In this document: piece by piece, positions 23,084 through 32,107 of the stretch
How positions within the stretch are numbered: the first letter of the stretch is position 1
How the letters are laid out: every line of letters begins with the position of its first letter
Assembly: GCF_014698305.1 (NCBI RefSeq)
Contig: NZ_JACJST010000028.1
Location: 1 to 64,000 of the forward strand
Source of the DNA: Anabaena lutea FACHB-196
GTDB lineage: Bacteria; Cyanobacteriota; Cyanobacteriia; Cyanobacteriales; Nostocaceae
Direction: 5' to 3'
DNA: 64,000 bases
Program-made: the position numbers and the translations under genes
The notes under the pieces: generated by a model
Seen by the model: the letters and a program-made list of their open reading frames with translations, nothing else
Databases searched by the model: none
Told to the model about the DNA's origin: nothing

Positions 23084-23098
23084 CAATAATGATTATCA
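23084..23098. promoter_or_regulatory. Zur-box-like operator
   Basis: CAATAATGATTATCA matches 13 of 15 positions of the cyanobacterial Zur consensus TGATAATNATTATCA. It ends 7 nt before the ATG of the COG0523-like gene. The same stretch also forms a perfect 15-bp palindrome, TAATGATTATCATTA. Zur with zinc normally represses at such sites, so the downstream genes are probably induced in zinc shortage. Confidence 0.7.
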
Positions 23099-23105
23099 TT
23101 AAAAT

Positions 23106-23885
23106 ATGAATATACCAATTATCACAGTTGTTGCTGGACTCGCAGGCTGTGGGAAAACTACCTGGATTTGCCAAAAGTTGCAAAATACCGCCTCCCTTGA
23201 CAATGTAATTTATTATAGTCCTGGAAATGGCAAAGTTCCCATAGACCAAACACGCCTAGCTGCGGAATTCCCAGAAGTAAAAATCTTTGGAGATGGTCAA
23301 GAAATCGAATTTTATACCCAGCTAGAAACCGCCAAACTAGCCTATATTGAACTGGGGTTTTATTTGGAATTAACGGCAATTCAGCAAATATTAAACGATG
23401 TACCTTATATTTCTATAGCTATTTTACCACCACACCTCAAAGATTCTGAATATCATAATTGGGCAGAAAAAATTATCACAGGTGCAAATATTGATATCAG
23501 TATTTCCCCAAGTCAACTTTGGCGCGTTCCCAGTAGTGGTCAAGTTATTGACGAAGACAGTTTACATGATTTTTGGTATGAAATTACTCATCATGCTTAT
23601 GGTCAAGTTACCCGTGCTAAAGGTATCTTTGATGTAGCTGATGGTCGGTCAATTTACGGTGATTTTGTCGCGGGTATCCCCACTACAGATTTTCTGGAAT
23701 TGGATATTCCACGTCATTTAGAAGGCAGACCACAGCGCTTTAGTGGTATAGAAGTATGGGGTAAAAATTTAGACGAGTCAGCAATTAAACAAACTTTACA
23801 AGATTGTTATTTGTCAGACATGGGCATCAAACAATACCAAGAACAGGTCAAACAGATTTTATCAGAAGGGGAGATAACTCAGTGA
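23106..23885 (+). CDS. Divergent COG0523/CobW-like P-loop protein lacking the CxCC metal motif
   Basis: A 259-residue protein. Walker A is GLAGCGKTT at residues 10-18. The C-terminal 90 residues follow the CobW C-terminal domain (QVTRAKGIFDVADG..., RPQRFSGIEVWGKNLDE, then a terminal DCYLS). Between them, the G3E metal-binding CxCC and the guanine-specificity NKxD seen in canonical COG0523 proteins are absent. COG0523 proteins are zinc or other metal chaperones with GTPase activity. A Zur-box-like site lies just upstream. It overlaps the following metallophosphoesterase gene by 4 nt (GTGA), so the two are translationally coupled. It may be a regulatory or degenerate partner of the canonical COG0523 gene at 28400. 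Confidence 0.75.
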   Translation: MNIPIITVVAGLAGCGKTTWICQKLQNTASLDNVIYYSPGNGKVPIDQTRLAAEFPEVKIFGDGQEIEFYTQLETAKLAYIELGFYLELTAIQQILNDVPYISIAILPPHLKDSEYHNWAEKIITGANIDISISPSQLWRVPSSGQVIDEDSLHDFWYEITHHAYGQVTRAKGIFDVADGRSIYGDFVAGIPTTDFLELDIPRHLEGRPQRFSGIEVWGKNLDESAIKQTLQDCYLSDMGIKQYQEQVKQILSEGEITQ

Positions 23886-24694
23886 AAATAGCAATTATGT
23901 CCTGTATTCATGGCAATTCTGAAGCTTTGGATGCAGTTTTATTAGATATCGATCACCAAAAAGCTGAAAAAATCTTTTGTCTGGGAGATTTAGTCGGATA
24001 TGGCCCCTATCCAAATGAGGTAGTAACACAAATTCGTGCTTTGGATATTCCTACTTGTGCTGGTTGTTGGGATGAAGATATTGTTGAAGGTTTAAATGCT
24101 TGTGATTGCAGTTATCCTTCGTTATTAGCTGAAAACAGGGGTAAAATAGCTCATGAATGGACTAATAAACAAATCAATCTCGAAAATAGAGAATTTTTAG
24201 CCCAATTACCCCATAGTTTCCGTGAGGAAAATTTAGCTTTTGTTCACGGTAGTCCTCACAGCAATCACGAATACTTGTTACCTGAACTTGACGCTTTTAC
24301 CGCTTTAGAACGAGTACTTTTTACAGATGCAGATGTGCTATTTTGTGGTCATACTCATGTCCCTTATGTCCGTAATTTGGATGCAGGTAGTTTGCAAGTG
24401 CGTGTTCAAGGTGAAGGTACAGAAGCAAGGGAAATCAATTTTACAGCTAACCTGAAACGGATTATTAATGTTGGTTCTGTGGGAGAACCTCGACATGGAA
24501 GACCTAATGCAACTTATGTGATTTATGACACCGATAATCAAGAAGTGAAGCTGAGGGAAGTTGCTTACGATTATCAAAAAACCTGTGCCGCGATTATTGA
24601 GAAGGGTTTACCTGCTATTTTTGCTTGGCGTTTGTCTCAAGGTTTGGAATATGCTGAAAGGGCTGATGATGCAACTCATGTTTGTACTAAGTAA
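23882..24694 (+). CDS. Metallophosphoesterase family protein (YfcE/MJ0936-like)
   Basis: A 270-residue calcineurin-like phosphoesterase. The GTG at 23882 is chosen: GGGGAG lies about 8 nt upstream and it overlaps the stop of the preceding gene. Motifs: the first DxH reads SCIHGN (Asp replaced by Cys, His kept), GD in CLGDLVGYGP, the GNH(D/E) region reads AGCWDED, then VHGSPH and the closing GHTHVP. So most but not all metal ligands are conserved. It is coupled to the COG0523-like gene under the Zur-box-like site. The substrate is unknown. The Asp-to-Cys change could alter metal preference. Confidence 0.8.
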   Translation: MKIAIMSCIHGNSEALDAVLLDIDHQKAEKIFCLGDLVGYGPYPNEVVTQIRALDIPTCAGCWDEDIVEGLNACDCSYPSLLAENRGKIAHEWTNKQINLENREFLAQLPHSFREENLAFVHGSPHSNHEYLLPELDAFTALERVLFTDADVLFCGHTHVPYVRNLDAGSLQVRVQGEGTEAREINFTANLKRIINVGSVGEPRHGRPNATYVIYDTDNQEVKLREVAYDYQKTCAAIIEKGLPAIFAWRLSQGLEYAERADDATHVCTK

Positions 24695-24885: not shown

Positions 24886-25635
24886 ATGACTAAATGGGCT
24901 ATTTTAAGCGGAATTGAGGGTAATTTAGCGGCTTATGAGGCTGTAATGGCTGATGTTAAGCGTCTGCGGGATGTTGAGGCTTTATATATTTTGGGTGATT
25001 TGGTGGGGCCAAATCAAGATTCTGAGAAGTTGGTTGCAAGAGTTCGTAATCCAAAGCGCGGGGAGTTGGAACCTTTAGTTTGTAAGGGTTGGTGGGAAGA
25101 ACAATGTTTTATTCTGCACGGTGTGGCTGGGACTGGGGAACCGACGGAGTTAATGGCTAAGTATGGGGGAGATACTGTTAAGTTACTTTGGGATTCGGTT
25201 TCTCGTCCGACTGTGCAATGGTTGCGAAATTTGGATTTTGGTTTTTTTGAACTTGATTGTTTATTAATTCACGGTTCAACGGTAGCAATTGATGAAACAC
25301 TAACGCCGGAAACACCTCCTATCCAAATGCTTGACCGTTTGGGACGTATGCAAGCAAATAATTTATTCTGCGGTCGTTCTGGTTTAGCTTTTAGATATCA
25401 GCTAGAAGCAGGTTCTATTACTACGGGTGTGACAACTTTGGATAGTTCTCCTACTCCTGAAACTGTGGAAATTTCTCCGCGTCAAGTTATAGGTGTGGGT
25501 AATGTGGGCAGAAATCCAGGAGAAGCAATTTATACTGTTTATGATCCAGAGACGAATTTTGTAGAATTTAAAACTGTACGTTACGGAGTTGGAAAAGGTT
25601 TTCAGGTTTCAACTAAGGTAATTTCTGCTGGGTAA
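24886..25635 (+). CDS. Degenerate metallophosphoesterase-like protein
   Basis: A 249-residue paralogue of the upstream gene, with similar order (LSGIEGNLAAYEAV, ILGDLVGPN, LLIHGST, NVGRNPGEAIYTVYDP). The metal site is largely gone: DxH is GxE (SGIEGN), GNHD is GWWEEQ, and GHTH is GRSG. Only the GD aspartate and one His remain, so catalysis is unlikely. The ATG at 24886 is used because the upstream TTG-started extension is repeat-derived. The 191-bp gap to the previous gene carries repeats, so co-transcription is uncertain. A pseudoenzyme or binding partner of the active paralogue is plausible. Confidence 0.7.
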   Translation: MTKWAILSGIEGNLAAYEAVMADVKRLRDVEALYILGDLVGPNQDSEKLVARVRNPKRGELEPLVCKGWWEEQCFILHGVAGTGEPTELMAKYGGDTVKLLWDSVSRPTVQWLRNLDFGFFELDCLLIHGSTVAIDETLTPETPPIQMLDRLGRMQANNLFCGRSGLAFRYQLEAGSITTGVTTLDSSPTPETVEISPRQVIGVGNVGRNPGEAIYTVYDPETNFVEFKTVRYGVGKGFQVSTKVISAG

Positions 25636-25802: not shown

Positions 25803-26174
25803 ATGAACAGAAAATTTATCTTGGCCTTGCTTTCTAGTCCTGTCTTGTTTACGTCTATGCTATCTATGGTGATGATGGCTAGACCAGCCCATGCTAGTCA
25901 AACAGTTACCCCTGTTGGCACTCATCTTTCTTGTGTCCGTTCTCCCCACTCAGCAACTGTACGTCAGGTATGTATACAGGTGGATAATGTTACTCCTACG
26001 ACGGTTAAACCAAATATAGAATTGGCGCAAGTTCAACCTGCTCAAAATCAGTCAGATGAGCTAGAATTCACTGATGCAGAAAGTGATGAAGCGATTAAGT
26101 TGTTTGGCTGTGATTGCCCAGTTTGTCTTAATGCTGTGCGTCAGTTGCATGGTGTAGCACCTTTACCCGTGTAG
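25803..26174 (+). CDS. Small exported protein with C-terminal CxCxxC motif
   Basis: A 123-residue protein with a clear signal peptide (hydrophobic core LALLSSPVLFTSMLSMVMMA, cleavage near RPAHA-SQ). The mature part is about 90 residues, with an acidic stretch (DELEFTDAESDE) and a terminal motif LFGCDCPVCLNAVRQLHG. The same motif type recurs in the exported protein at 30747. The C-x-C-x-x-C arrangement suggests metal binding or a thiol function, but no known family was recognised. It is followed by a strong bidirectional terminator shared with psaK. Confidence 0.7.
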   Translation: MNRKFILALLSSPVLFTSMLSMVMMARPAHASQTVTPVGTHLSCVRSPHSATVRQVCIQVDNVTPTTVKPNIELAQVQPAQNQSDELEFTDAESDEAIKLFGCDCPVCLNAVRQLHGVAPLPV

Positions 26175-27446: not shown

Positions 27447-28355
27447 ATGTCTACCAATTTATTAACAAAGCCTGCTGGTGCATTTGGTGGTGAAGTTCAA
27501 GAATTTCTCTGGAATTGGGAAAATCAACAATTGCAGGTGATTTATGAAACTCTTGGCCAAGGTTCTCCGCTTTTGTTGCTTCCCGCTTTTAGTAGTGTTT
27601 CTACAAGAGGAGAAATGGGAGAACTTGCTAAATTACTCGCTTCCCATTTTCAAGTTACAGCTTTAGACTGGCCAGGTTTTGGGGAATCTTCCCGACTAAA
27701 ATTAGATTACAACCCAGCAATATATCAGCAATTTTTGGCAGATTTTGTGAAATCTGTGTTTAATATCCCTATTATTGTAGTTGCTGCTGGTCATGCTGCT
27801 GGTTATGTGCTGCAACTAGCCGTTAAACAGCCAAATGCTTTTTCGCGGATTGTTTTGGTAGCACCAACTTGGCGTGGCCCTCTACCGACAATGGGGGCAA
27901 ATGCAAATATAGCTGCTATGGTGAGGGGATTAGTGCGATCGCCCATTCTCGGTCAAGCACTCTATAAACTTAATACTACCCCATCTTTCTTAAGTTGGAT
28001 GTACAGCCGCCATGTCTTCACCGATACAGCGAAACTTACACCCAGTTTCATCACCGAAAAATGGCAAAGCACTCAACAACCAAACGCCAGATTTGCTTCT
28101 GCGGCCTTTGTCACCGGCAATATAGATACTATTCATAGTCAAACAGAGTTTCTATCCCTAGTGCAGTCCTTATCCGCCCCACTAATGGCGGTAATTGGCG
28201 AATTTAGCCCCCCGAAGTCACGGCAAGAAATGGACGCATTGGCGGCTTTACCAGGAGTTAGCAGCGTTGTGGTTCCTGGTTCTTTGGGATTGCATGAAGA
28301 ATACCCAGCAGTGGTTTTTGAGGCAATATTACCATTTTTAACAAGGGTGTGTTAA
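27447..28355 (+). CDS. Alpha/beta-hydrolase-fold protein with altered nucleophile
   Basis: A 302-residue protein with the alpha/beta-hydrolase layout: GSPLLLLPAFSSVSTRGEM (oxyanion region), TALDWPGFGESSR, nucleophile elbow, then a late acidic region (AVIGEFSPPK) and the His in GSLGLHEEYP. The elbow, normally GxSxG, reads AAGHAAG, so the Ser is Ala. Either it is non-catalytic or another residue serves. A Zur-box-like site and the COG0523 GTPase gene follow immediately. I cannot assign a substrate. Confidence 0.75.
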   Translation: MSTNLLTKPAGAFGGEVQEFLWNWENQQLQVIYETLGQGSPLLLLPAFSSVSTRGEMGELAKLLASHFQVTALDWPGFGESSRLKLDYNPAIYQQFLADFVKSVFNIPIIVVAAGHAAGYVLQLAVKQPNAFSRIVLVAPTWRGPLPTMGANANIAAMVRGLVRSPILGQALYKLNTTPSFLSWMYSRHVFTDTAKLTPSFITEKWQSTQQPNARFASAAFVTGNIDTIHSQTEFLSLVQSLSAPLMAVIGEFSPPKSRQEMDALAALPGVSSVVVPGSLGLHEEYPAVVFEAILPFLTRVC

Positions 28356-28357
28356 AC

Positions 28358-28372
28358 AGATAATGATTATCA
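28358..28372. promoter_or_regulatory. Zur-box-like operator before the COG0523 GTPase gene
   Basis: AGATAATGATTATCA matches 14 of 15 positions of the cyanobacterial Zur consensus TGATAATNATTATCA. It begins right after the stop of the hydrolase-like gene and ends 27 nt before the GTPase start, a normal operator position. Confidence 0.82.
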
Positions 28373-28399: not shown

Positions 28400-29371
28400 A
28401 TGATGGCTTCAGAAACATTCACGACCGTGCCTGTAACCGTTTTAACTGGCTATTTAGGTGCAGGTAAAACTACTTTACTCAATCACATTCTGACTTACGA
28501 ACACGGGAAAAAAGTTGCTGTCATCGTCAATGAATTTGGGGAAGTAGGCATTGATAATCAACTAGTTATTGATGCAGACGAAGAAATCTTTGAAATGAAC
28601 AACGGCTGTATTTGTTGTACAGTTCGGGGTGACTTAATTCGCATCATCGGCAATTTGATGAAACGTCGTGATAAATTTGACCATTTAGTCATTGAAACCA
28701 CTGGATTAGCAGATCCTGCACCTGTAATTCAGACATTCTTTGTAGATGAAGATATGCAGAGTCAATTGTCACTAGATGCAGTAGTTACAGTTGTCGATGC
28801 CAAGCATATTTGGCAACATTGGGAAGCAGACGAAGCCCAAGAACAAATTGCATTTGCTGATGTAATTTTATTGAATAAAACCGATTTAGTCAGCCCAGAA
28901 AATTTAGAAGAATTAGAAAAGCGGATTCGGTCGATGAATGCGATCGCAAAAATCTACCGCACCCAAAACTCAGAATTAGGAATGGATGCATTATTAGGTG
29001 TAAAAGCCTTTGACTTAGACCGCGCTTTAGAAATTGATCCCAACTTCTTAGGTGAAGATGCTCACGTACATGATGAAAGCGTTTATTCTGTAGCTTTTGT
29101 AGAAAAAGGCGAAATAGACGGACAAAAATTAAACGAATGGTTAAGTGAATTATTGCGTACTCAAGGAATAGATATCTTTCGCATGAAAGGCATTCTAAAC
29201 ATTGCAGGAGAAGATGACCGCTTTGTTTTCCAAGGAGTACACATGATATTTGATGGTAAACCAGATAGACCTTGGAAAGCCAGCGAAACCCGGAAAAATG
29301 AACTTGTATTCATCGGTAGAAACCTAGATGAAGCCAAACTAAAACAAGATTTTCTAGCCTGTCTAGCGTAA
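28400..29371 (+). CDS. COG0523 (CobW/ZigA-type) zinc-chaperone GTPase
   Basis: A 323-residue G3E-family GTPase. Walker A is GYLGAGKTT, the metal motif CxCC is NNGCICCTVRG, Walker B is in the VIETTGLADP region, and base specificity is LNKTD. The C-terminal CobW domain contains KGILNIAGEDDRF and LVFIGRNLDE. Such proteins deliver zinc to client enzymes when zinc is scarce, and several are Zur-repressed; the Zur-box-like site upstream supports that here. Two adjacent ATG codons occur at the start (28400 and 28403) with only a weak ribosome binding site. A cobalamin role (CobW) is less likely because no cob genes are present. Confidence 0.9.
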   Translation: MMASETFTTVPVTVLTGYLGAGKTTLLNHILTYEHGKKVAVIVNEFGEVGIDNQLVIDADEEIFEMNNGCICCTVRGDLIRIIGNLMKRRDKFDHLVIETTGLADPAPVIQTFFVDEDMQSQLSLDAVVTVVDAKHIWQHWEADEAQEQIAFADVILLNKTDLVSPENLEELEKRIRSMNAIAKIYRTQNSELGMDALLGVKAFDLDRALEIDPNFLGEDAHVHDESVYSVAFVEKGEIDGQKLNEWLSELLRTQGIDIFRMKGILNIAGEDDRFVFQGVHMIFDGKPDRPWKASETRKNELVFIGRNLDEAKLKQDFLACLA

Positions 29372-29640: not shown

Positions 29641-30696
29641 ATGAACTACACAACTAGTAAAACTCAAGAATTTACACCCTACTATTCAGGTCAGCTTGCA
29701 GATTATGTTACATCTTTAACTTGGTCACACCAAGGAGAAAAACTAGCTGCAACTTCCGCTGCTGGAGAAGTTATTCTTTGGGAAAATAGCGAAATCACAA
29801 CCTTACAAACTGCCACAGGTAAATCAGTAGATTGCGTGGCATTTTCTGCCGATAGTAAATATTTAGCCGTCGGTGGACAAGATGGAAAAGTGAAAATATG
29901 GCGAGAAAATCAATTAATTACTACTTTAGAAAATGCCCCTGCTTGGGTTGATAAATTAGCTTGGAATCATATAACTAACCAACTAGCTTTTAGTTTAGGG
30001 CGCTGCGTTCAAGTATGGGATGCGGACGCAGAAGAAATTGTTGTCACGCTGAATTTTGAAAACTCATCAATTTTAGGGATTGATTGGCGTAAAGATGGAC
30101 AATATTTAGCCATTAGCGGTTATCAAGGAGTGAAAATTTGGAATACTCAAGATTGGGATGAAGAACCTTATATTTTAGCTACGACTACAGTCAGTGTAGC
30201 AATGGCTTGGTCGCCTGATGGCAAATACTTAGCTTCTGGCAATATGGATCGTAGTGTCACCGTGTTGGAATGGGGAAATCCCGATCCTTGGCTAATGCGA
30301 GGCTTTCCGGGTAAAATTCGCCAATTAGCTTGGTCAGAAGCCACTACAGCCGCTGGTGCGCCGCTTTTAGCTTCTTCCAGTGTTGAGGGTATAGTAGTTT
30401 GGGAGAAATCCGAGGATGAGTCATTGGGTTGGGAAGCGCGCATATTGACTAATCATGTGGATATAATTAATGCGATCGCATTCGCACCCCAAAGTTTTCT
30501 TCTCGCTTCCGCAGCAGCTGATGGTTGGTTGTGTTTGTGGAACCAAGCCACAGAAGTATCCCAAATTCTCACAGGTGTCAGTGCAGGATTTTCTACCCTA
30601 GCTTGGCATCCCAGTAGGGGTGGGGTTTCCCCACCCTTAATAGCCGCAGGTGGGGAACAAGGGGAACTACTTATTTGGTCAAAAACTACTGACTAA
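29641..30696 (+). CDS. WD40-repeat protein
   Basis: A 351-residue protein made almost entirely of WD40-type blades. Seven or eight units can be seen, each with the pattern (L/V)AWSPDGKYLASG...G.V.(I/V)W, for example VAFSADSKYLAVGGQDGKVKIW and MAWSPDGKYLASGNMDRSVTVLEW. There is no signal peptide, so it is a cytoplasmic beta-propeller scaffold. It lies 269 bp after the zinc GTPase on the same strand, with repeats between, so operon membership is uncertain. No partner can be named from sequence. Confidence 0.85.
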   Translation: MNYTTSKTQEFTPYYSGQLADYVTSLTWSHQGEKLAATSAAGEVILWENSEITTLQTATGKSVDCVAFSADSKYLAVGGQDGKVKIWRENQLITTLENAPAWVDKLAWNHITNQLAFSLGRCVQVWDADAEEIVVTLNFENSSILGIDWRKDGQYLAISGYQGVKIWNTQDWDEEPYILATTTVSVAMAWSPDGKYLASGNMDRSVTVLEWGNPDPWLMRGFPGKIRQLAWSEATTAAGAPLLASSSVEGIVVWEKSEDESLGWEARILTNHVDIINAIAFAPQSFLLASAAADGWLCLWNQATEVSQILTGVSAGFSTLAWHPSRGGVSPPLIAAGGEQGELLIWSKTTD

Positions 30697-30746: not shown

Positions 30747-31010
30747 ATGAACATAGCCAAACTCATTTTGCTTGCTTGTCCAGTCTTTCTGGCATCTCTG
30801 CTACTAGTAGCTAATCCAGCCCATGCATTGGGTAGAAACGGAGTCATCACTCTAGCTACACCATCTGCACCCAACAATATTGAACTAACAGCACCACATT
30901 TTGGTTTAGTAACCAATCCAATTATTGATCAATTAGGTTGCGGTTGCTCTACTTGTGTTCAGGCTAAATTTCAGATGTTACAAGGCAAGTTGCCTGCTGC
31001 TGATTTTTAA
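30747..31010 (+). CDS. Small exported protein with C-terminal CxCxxC motif (second copy)
   Basis: An 87-residue protein with a signal peptide (LILLACPVFLASLLLVANPAHA) and a short mature part ending in LGCGCSTCVQAKFQMLQGKLP. The architecture (signal peptide ending in PAHA, mature region, then C-x-C-x-x-C about 20-30 residues from the end) matches the protein at 25803, although the middle parts differ. This points to a small unrecognised exported family. It is followed by a strong terminator. A metal-binding or thiol role is inferred only. Confidence 0.7.
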   Translation: MNIAKLILLACPVFLASLLLVANPAHALGRNGVITLATPSAPNNIELTAPHFGLVTNPIIDQLGCGCSTCVQAKFQMLQGKLPAADF

Positions 31011-31099: not shown

Positions 31100-32107
31100 A
31101 TGTTAGAAAAGTCGAAAAACATACTATTTAATAAATTATTAAATGCTGGTTTTTTTACTCTTGCACTTGGATTCGCCGGGTGTGGAAATCGAACTATAAA
31201 TACAGCATATACCCGAACTAATCAAACCAACAGCATTAACAGAAATCTTCCCCAAGTTGTAGCAACGACTAGTATACTCTGTGATTTAACTCAACAGATT
31301 GCCGGGACAAGTATTAACCTTACCTGCTTGATTCCTCCTGGTTTAGATCCCCGCTTTTATCAACCCACTCCAGAAGATAGACAAGCCATTGAACAGGCTA
31401 ATCTTATTTTATATCATGGCTATAATTTTGAATCAGGTTTAATCAAAATCATTAAAGCAAAACAAAACCGAACGCGGAAAATAGCTGTTGCCCAACTTGC
31501 TGTACCACAGCCACAAAAATTACGAAATAATGGTCAAGAATTCACAGAACCACATATTTGGCACAATACAAAGAATACTATCCAGATAGTAGAGGTAATT
31601 AATAGTAATTTAGCTAAAATTTCCCCTAAAAATGCAAAAGCCTATAACAGCAATACCGCAAAACTTACCAAAGAATTAAACCAACTAAATAGCTGGATTA
31701 AAACTAGACTGGCCAGTATTCCCACAAAAAACCGCAAAATACTGACAACCCATCAAGCAATAATTTATTATGTCAAAGCTTATGGTTTTCCCTATAAAGG
31801 AAGTTGGCTAAATATTAGCGATGAAGAGAATTTAAGCAATATAAAAGTTAAAAATATGGCTAAATATATTCAAAAATCTAAAGTCATAACAATTTTTGCA
31901 GACACAAAAACCAACTCCAATGTGCTTGAACCTATAGCCAAAGAAGCTAATGTAAAACTTTTTCCCAGACAACTTTATATAGATGGACTTGGTGAACCTG
32001 GTAGTGATGGAGAAACCTATCAAAAAATGATGGATGCTAACACACGCAGCATTGTAGAAGGACTGGGTGGAACTTATCTGAAATTTGCACCGAACATTTC
32101 TAAGTAA
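31100..32107 (+). CDS. Metal ABC transporter substrate-binding lipoprotein (ZnuA/MntC family) with altered first ligand
   Basis: A 335-residue cluster A-I binding protein. The lipoprotein signal ends at GFAGC (Cys about 28). Ligand positions: the first His (normally DPHxYxPTP) is Arg here, PGLDPRFYQPTPED; the second is kept (EPHIW); the third region is TTHQAIIYYVKAYGF with His kept; the last Asp is in FADTKTNSN. These proteins bind Zn2+ or Mn2+ in the periplasm. No permease or ATPase genes are adjacent, so it is either an orphan binding protein or works with subunits encoded elsewhere. The region has zinc-related genes, but no Zur box is seen directly upstream. Confidence 0.82.
   Translation: MLEKSKNILFNKLLNAGFFTLALGFAGCGNRTINTAYTRTNQTNSINRNLPQVVATTSILCDLTQQIAGTSINLTCLIPPGLDPRFYQPTPEDRQAIEQANLILYHGYNFESGLIKIIKAKQNRTRKIAVAQLAVPQPQKLRNNGQEFTEPHIWHNTKNTIQIVEVINSNLAKISPKNAKAYNSNTAKLTKELNQLNSWIKTRLASIPTKNRKILTTHQAIIYYVKAYGFPYKGSWLNISDEENLSNIKVKNMAKYIQKSKVITIFADTKTNSNVLEPIAKEANVKLFPRQLYIDGLGEPGSDGETYQKMMDANTRSIVEGLGGTYLKFAPNISK

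Follow-up and report, generated by a model that had tools for sequence, protein, structure and literature searches.

Three adjacent genes on the forward strand of the window, the 64,000-nucleotide stretch of DNA analysed here, are very probably under Zur-type regulation and would be switched on when zinc runs out. They encode a P-loop protein apparently derived from the COG0523 family, a metallophosphoesterase-fold protein with cysteines in place of metal ligands and a third member classed as a pseudo-phosphoesterase. Our interpretation, held at slightly under even confidence, is that the trio forms a Zur-repressed module handling scarce zinc, in which the metal site has been split off to the phosphoesterase partner. 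A first-pass annotation of this DNA had proposed a possible new zinc-limitation component at the locus, which the present analysis supports as likely; the third gene, the cysteine-substituted phosphoesterase, the relation to the arsenate reductase Car1 and the finding that small-genome cyanobacteria also have the trio go beyond it. The closest P-loop proteins are those of Anabaena catenula FACHB-362 and Trichormus NMC-1 (96 and 97% identical), and the host of the window is a heterocystous cyanobacterium close to these two strains.

The Zur-box-like operator

A 13/15 match to the Zur consensus, annotated earlier as lying 7 nt before the P-loop gene, was present as described. This 15-mer, CAATAATGATTATCA at 23084-23098, differs from TGATAATNATTATCA at two positions and stops 7 nt short of the ATG. 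It lies inside a 21-mer on the forward strand (23084..23104) with the core AATGATTATCATT, which ends 1 nt before the ATG. The cyanobacterial Zur box as quoted in PMC9337993 is NTNANAATGATNATCATTNTNAN, and in the better register the site matched 14 of the 16 bases specified by that consensus and 12 of 12 in the core AATGATNATCATT. A second Zur-box-like site (28352..28372, forward strand) stands 5' of an intact COG0523 gene, where positions 28358-28372 show one mismatch to TGATAATNATTATCA.

The box score, whether in the window or in the window's own genome, was rejected as proof of Zur control, since it did not rise above controls. At up to three mismatches the 15-mer matched the window 11 times where shuffles averaged 7.8, which is not significant by score; at up to two it matched the genome 95 times, against 127 for a reversed-pattern control. 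The 21-mer yielded two matches of up to three mismatches in the window (shuffle mean 1.16) and 14 of up to two mismatches in the genome, compared to 19 in the control. The site is significant because it is conserved across loci, not because of its score. For the operator survey, 116 of the 124 loci were full length, and 84 remained once loci sharing 90% identity or more with another had been removed. The Zur-box sequence has a conserved place upstream of the P-loop genes: a site with no more than two mismatches occurred within 300 nt upstream in 51 of the 84 loci, and in 31 of these 51 it was positioned at -19 to -28. Each of 20 dinucleotide shuffles left a box in 0 or 1 of the 84 loci, and other ORFs at the same loci had a box in 29 of 375 upstream regions. 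The 21-mer was present with up to three mismatches in 57 of the 84.

The remaining 33 loci had no box of up to two mismatches within 300 nt. Of these, 25 had long flanks, and 16 of the 25 lay directly behind a zinc-cluster or FAD-oxidoreductase gene, that is, a folE, hemB, thrS, znuA, COG0523 or FAD-oxidoreductase gene ending no more than 400 nt upstream on the same strand, compared to 1 of 32 boxed loci; nine of the 25 had neither their own box nor a searched gene just upstream. Where the trio follows such a gene instead of carrying its own box, a promoter further up could serve it. The window site also resembles a Fur box of the E. coli type. A Fur-box reading was rejected because the site does not agree with the Anabaena FurA consensus given in PMC4005646 and has zinc genes for neighbours.

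The P-loop protein and the two phosphoesterase-fold proteins of the trio

The P-loop ORF (23106..23885, forward strand, 259 aa) carries the Walker A motif GLAGCGKT and a CobW_C domain and contains neither CxCC nor NKxD, in agreement with the earlier description. Motif counts for the three proteins were made on 119, 120 and 85 of the 124 loci respectively, after length and identity cuts and without deduplication. The strict Walker A pattern GxxGxGK[ST] was found in 105 of the 119 P-loop homologues, NKxD, by pattern, in two and CxCC in none; as a control, all 20 COG0523 rows of the comparison alignment carried CxCC. The window protein matched CobW_C of Pfam weakly, at 23.1 bits against a cut-off of 22, and the domain was detected at E ≤ 1 in all 21 family members scanned. 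PF02492, the CobW nucleotide-binding domain, was detected in 11 of the 21 (best E 0.0012) and not in the window protein. Alignment to COG0523 with hhalign gave an E value of 3.9e-6 at a probability of 87% with the C-domain alone aligned, and a full-length profile match to COG0523 was rejected on that account.

The best Foldseek match of the P-loop model (pLDDT 69.7) was YjiA (E 2.6e-5), at a low TM of 0.27/0.23, followed in the list by SRP GTPases and MeaB with some unrelated folds between. Searches of PDB sequences with the protein and with its profile returned nothing significant, YjiA being best at E 0.11. An unrelated P-loop family, which the first-pass annotation had named as a refuting outcome, is argued against by the CobW_C matches in every member scanned, the C-domain alignment and the low-TM match to YjiA. 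Since two defining COG0523 motifs fail, the protein is called COG0523-derived rather than a member; the evidence supports a COG0523 ancestry in which CxCC and NKxD would have been lost.

The second gene (23882..24694, forward strand, 270 aa) begins with a GTG at 23882 and overlaps the P-loop ORF, which ends at 23885, by 4 nt, as had been reported. Its product does not possess the canonical ligand set of the YfcE/SapH type (DxH ... GD ... GN[HY]D ... H ... GHxH). Cysteines (C8 and C62) take the place of the metal-binding D and N in every one of the 120 members, and the histidine of GNHD is also replaced. GCWDE and SC[IL]H were both found in all 120, NxCxCxxP in 117, VHGSP in 105 and a C-terminal HxC pattern in 104. 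Twelve positions (C8, H10, C33, D36, C62, C74, C76, H122, C155, H157, H159 and C268) were invariant in 57 of 57 full-length members; the phosphoesterase of locus L132 differs at 33 and 36, with the loss of D36. Conservation was strong, with a mean column identity of 85% in 21 sequences, ligand positions included. The closest structures by Foldseek were 3rqz and SapH (3qfm), an asymmetric Ap4A hydrolase, and Vps29 was also among the matches; the structure model is unreliable at 64-82, the stretch holding C74/C76. The protein thus has its fold in common with SapH, 3rqz and YfcE, but the DxH and GNHD motifs are not kept.

Non-cyanobacterial relatives of the phosphoesterase kept D and N in all eight cases fetched. 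Five of the eight are encoded in arsenic operons, two of them in one operon, and these five are 32-37% identical to the trio protein. CxC is present in four of the five: C74/C76 aligned with the CxC of L149-L151 and of one L196 copy, and the residue numbers 74/76 are the same in three (L149, L150 and the L196 copy). The arsenic operons, which also hold genes of the ArsR family and arsM or ACR3, were on four plasmids from three phyla (L149, L150, L151 and L196); in Pedobacter there are two adjacent phosphoesterase copies, one without CxC. Car1, the metallophosphoesterase-derived arsenate reductase of Rufibacter tibetensis, known here through PMC12124457, belongs to the same family and shares CxC 74/76; Cys74 and Cys76 are described there as essential, for reductase activity and not for zinc transfer. 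In contrast to the arsenic-operon relatives fetched, the trio protein has cysteines for the ligands D8 and N62, a zinc context rather than an arsenic operon, and a P-loop partner. In a tree of 31 rows nine third proteins stood apart (100/100) and eight outsiders were grouped (98/95); with several long branches in the tree, a single clade of the 14 Cys-type proteins is not proven by it alone.

The third protein (24886..25635, forward strand) had no Pfam match yet aligns to the phosphoesterase. Five of its seven ligand positions are changed (DxH to GxE, GNHD to GWWE and GHTH to GRSG), and the equivalents of D36 and H122 are kept. GIEGN was found in 72 and GWWE in 78 of 85 third proteins. In an alignment of the third gene, five of the 30 rows seem to be a different phosphoesterase, and counts from that alignment were not used.

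Distribution and zinc neighbourhood of the trio

A survey of the gene pair, which the first-pass annotation had recommended, found the 4-nt overlap (spacing -4) kept in 104 of 118 loci, and all three genes were present in 85 of the 94 loci with longer flanks. Among 195 genomes of the order, the P-loop gene was detected in 100, the phosphoesterase gene in 96 and the third gene in 96, and 93 of the 102 genomes with any member had all three. To drop weak paralogue matches, the author chose E cut-offs for the phosphoesterase and third-gene sets; this excluded 23 of 119 genomes whose phosphoesterase matches were weak and 11 of 107 whose third-gene matches were weak, and all 100 P-loop genomes were kept, four of them with short weak matches. 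In a phylum-wide sample the P-loop profile matched 108 of 386 genomes, several only weakly and through the P-loop region. All three genes were found in eight of nine loci fetched from a family of small genomes (1.6-2.9 Mb), which are probably marine picocyanobacteria, and the ninth (L183) has the P-loop gene alone. The boxes of these loci are weaker, with one mismatch to a 23-mer in L182, two in L181 and L187 and three to four in the other six. A gene resembling SAM methyltransferases lies between the phosphoesterase and third genes in six loci (L052-L057).

In the window the trio stands in a zinc neighbourhood, all on the forward strand: an intact COG0523 GTPase with CxCC and NKxD (28400..29371), a WD40 protein (29641..30696) and a ZnuA/AztC-like metal-binding protein (31100..32107). 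One query placed a WD40-like relative close to the trio in 6 of 94 other loci. The neighbour stretches reached, depending on the locus, 0.4-10 kb upstream and 1.8-10.8 kb downstream of the P-loop start, and overlapping queries were merged. By raw count, 62 of the 94 trio loci had at least one HemB, FolE, ThrS, HisI, COG0523, DUF1636 or ZnuA gene and 45 had two or more kinds, COG0523 being represented in 37; the stretches of the other 32 held none of the zinc genes searched. For the 57 non-redundant loci, at least one zinc-cluster gene was found in 33 and two or more kinds in 24. In Trichormus variabilis ATCC 29413 the trio is on plasmid A, preceded by thrS, DUF1636, COG0523 and hisI, with hemB and znu genes diverging; a plasmid of Dolichospermum DET69 provides a second named example of the trio among zinc genes.

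A gene for an FAD/NAD(P)-binding oxidoreductase was observed in 43 of the 94 loci (L051-L053, L084, L085, L088-L090, L093, L094 and others), and in 27 it is on the opposite strand no more than 1.5 kb upstream of the P-loop gene. Its counterpart in Synechococcus PCC 7002 is, by gene order, G0132, which is de-repressed in the zur mutant described in PMC4628125.

Plasmid pAQ7 of PCC 7002 carries a truncated P-loop homologue behind a perfect TGATAATTATTATCA. Over its first 147 residues this ORF shares 99% identity with the P-loop protein of PCC 7117, a strain in which the trio is intact. By order and product the truncated homologue is G0131, the annotated record using other tags; mapping by gene order also identifies G0129 as a third-gene fragment and G0130 as an ORF without similarity to the trio. 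In the zur deletion strain, hemB-II, folE-II, G0131 and G0132 are reported to rise and G0129 and G0130 are not (PMC4628125). One truncated member of the family is therefore Zur-repressed, given the published transcriptomics and the gene-order mapping to G0131. Where PCC 7117 (L085) keeps the last part of the P-loop gene, the whole phosphoesterase gene and the first part of the third gene, pAQ7 (L084, 7418-8367) carries an unrelated segment, so the model strain has no intact trio at this place.

Possible function and relation to known systems

Under the interpretation put forward above, zinc-loaded Zur would leave the operator and the three proteins would be produced and assemble into a complex. 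In it, the P-loop protein would act as a nucleotide-driven switch, docking via its CobW_C domain, and the Cys-substituted phosphoesterase as the seat of the metal or of thiol chemistry that frees or inserts it; the metal site of a COG0523 chaperone would thus have moved to a partner protein. With the pseudo-phosphoesterase as a putative scaffold, the module may move zinc to client proteins, or recover it from them, during starvation. We infer every biochemical step of this scheme from sequence, and its regulation is well supported; the lack of a rise of G0129 and G0130 in the PCC 7002 zur mutant, as given in PMC4628125, counts against the scheme. That the trio is specifically a metal-insertion machine, in which a COG0523-type switch without a metal site works with a cysteine-ligated phosphoesterase centre carrying zinc, as part of the starvation response of many cyanobacteria, apparently including small-genome marine ones, is a possibility that we regard as doubtful.

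The phosphoesterase could alternatively be a Zur-controlled, Car1-like thiol-redox enzyme with C74/C76 as its redox pair, activated or loaded by the P-loop protein, which in zinc starvation would reduce zinc-site thiols or another substrate and so, for example, protect zinc-free proteins from oxidation. The aligned and in part identically numbered CxC of the arsenic-operon relatives, their degree of identity and the essential cysteines of Car1 (PMC12124457) are consistent with this. However, the D and N of those relatives are cysteines in the trio, so the metal centre differs, and no arsenic genes were annotated in the five trio stretches viewed; we consider this explanation unlikely. If the protein were instead still active as a phosphoesterase, its metal site having been re-tuned, it might hydrolyse a starvation nucleotide, such as a dinucleotide or alarmone, that the P-loop protein also binds. 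The structural similarity to 3rqz and to the Ap4A hydrolase SapH, and the retention of H10, D36, H122, H157 and H159 in all full-length members, would fit such an enzyme, but the replacement of two metal ligands and of the GNHD histidine, together with the loss of D36 in L132, makes it rather improbable.

The first-pass annotation had offered two roles for the P-loop protein: regulating the intact GTPase (28400) as one of its subunits, or acting as a partner of the phosphoesterase. The former could draw on the COG0523 genes in the stretches of the 37 loci and on the box-like sites before both window genes; yet it is with the phosphoesterases that the overlap is fixed and the co-occurrence nearly perfect, and a COG0523 match was found within the fetched stretch in only one (L195) of the nine small-genome loci. 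No specific support was obtained for the regulatory subunit, which appears quite improbable, and the partnership with the phosphoesterase is favoured by the same overlap and co-occurrence. Vps29 is a phosphoesterase-fold scaffold, and its appearance among the Foldseek matches of the second protein, along with the five of seven ligands lost from the third, would suit an assembly platform or sensor in the Zur response in which none of the three proteins is catalytic. The strong conservation of the phosphoesterase, with its ligand positions, is unlike that of a plain scaffold, and this explanation is very improbable.

The COG0523/G3E zinc chaperones include YjiA and ZigA, as well as ZagA/YciC and ZNG1. 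Walker A, CobW_C, probable Zur-type control and a neighbourhood of zinc genes link the trio P-loop protein to these chaperones, whereas it lacks CxCC, almost never has NKxD and is coupled to two phosphoesterase-fold proteins. In UreG/UreE and HypB/HypA a nucleotide switch is paired with a separate metal-binding partner, and the division of labour proposed for the trio would be alike; this is an analogy in which no homology of partners is claimed, the partner in the trio being a Cys-substituted phosphoesterase. The conserved natural variant without CxCC bears on how COG0523 proteins serve zinc homeostasis. Tied to a partner with new metal-centre cysteines, it would set the switch apart from the metal site and would let the mechanism be tested by mutating the parts.

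The trio shares its type of operator and its hemB, folE, thrS, znu and COG0523 neighbours with the Zur regulon as reported for Anabaena PCC 7120, Synechococcus PCC 7002 and WH8102. In Anabaena, thrS2 and the COG0523 gene all4722 share an operon under Zur control (PMC4787780), and in WH8102 the uncharacterised synw0968, synw0972 and synw0973 are reported to be Zur-repressed. The intact trio was not found named in the available text on these regulons, and PCC 7002 (PMC4628125) carries the broken version; that the profiled zur-mutant strain has a broken copy is one reason why the trio could have been overlooked. In the literature searched, which mostly excludes subscription papers, we found no description of the trio and no paper treating COG0523 and metallophosphoesterase together. 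The trio would add a component to the cyanobacterial zinc response, probably including that of marine picocyanobacteria.

Two small proteins with signal-peptide-like starts are also encoded among the zinc genes of the window (25803-26174 and 30747-31010), and their C-terminal Cys motifs, GCDCPVC and GCGCSTC, are similar. Homology between them was rejected, since the BLASTP alignment was confined to the N-terminal signal-like regions. Relatives of the second were found in 26 of 60 genomes.
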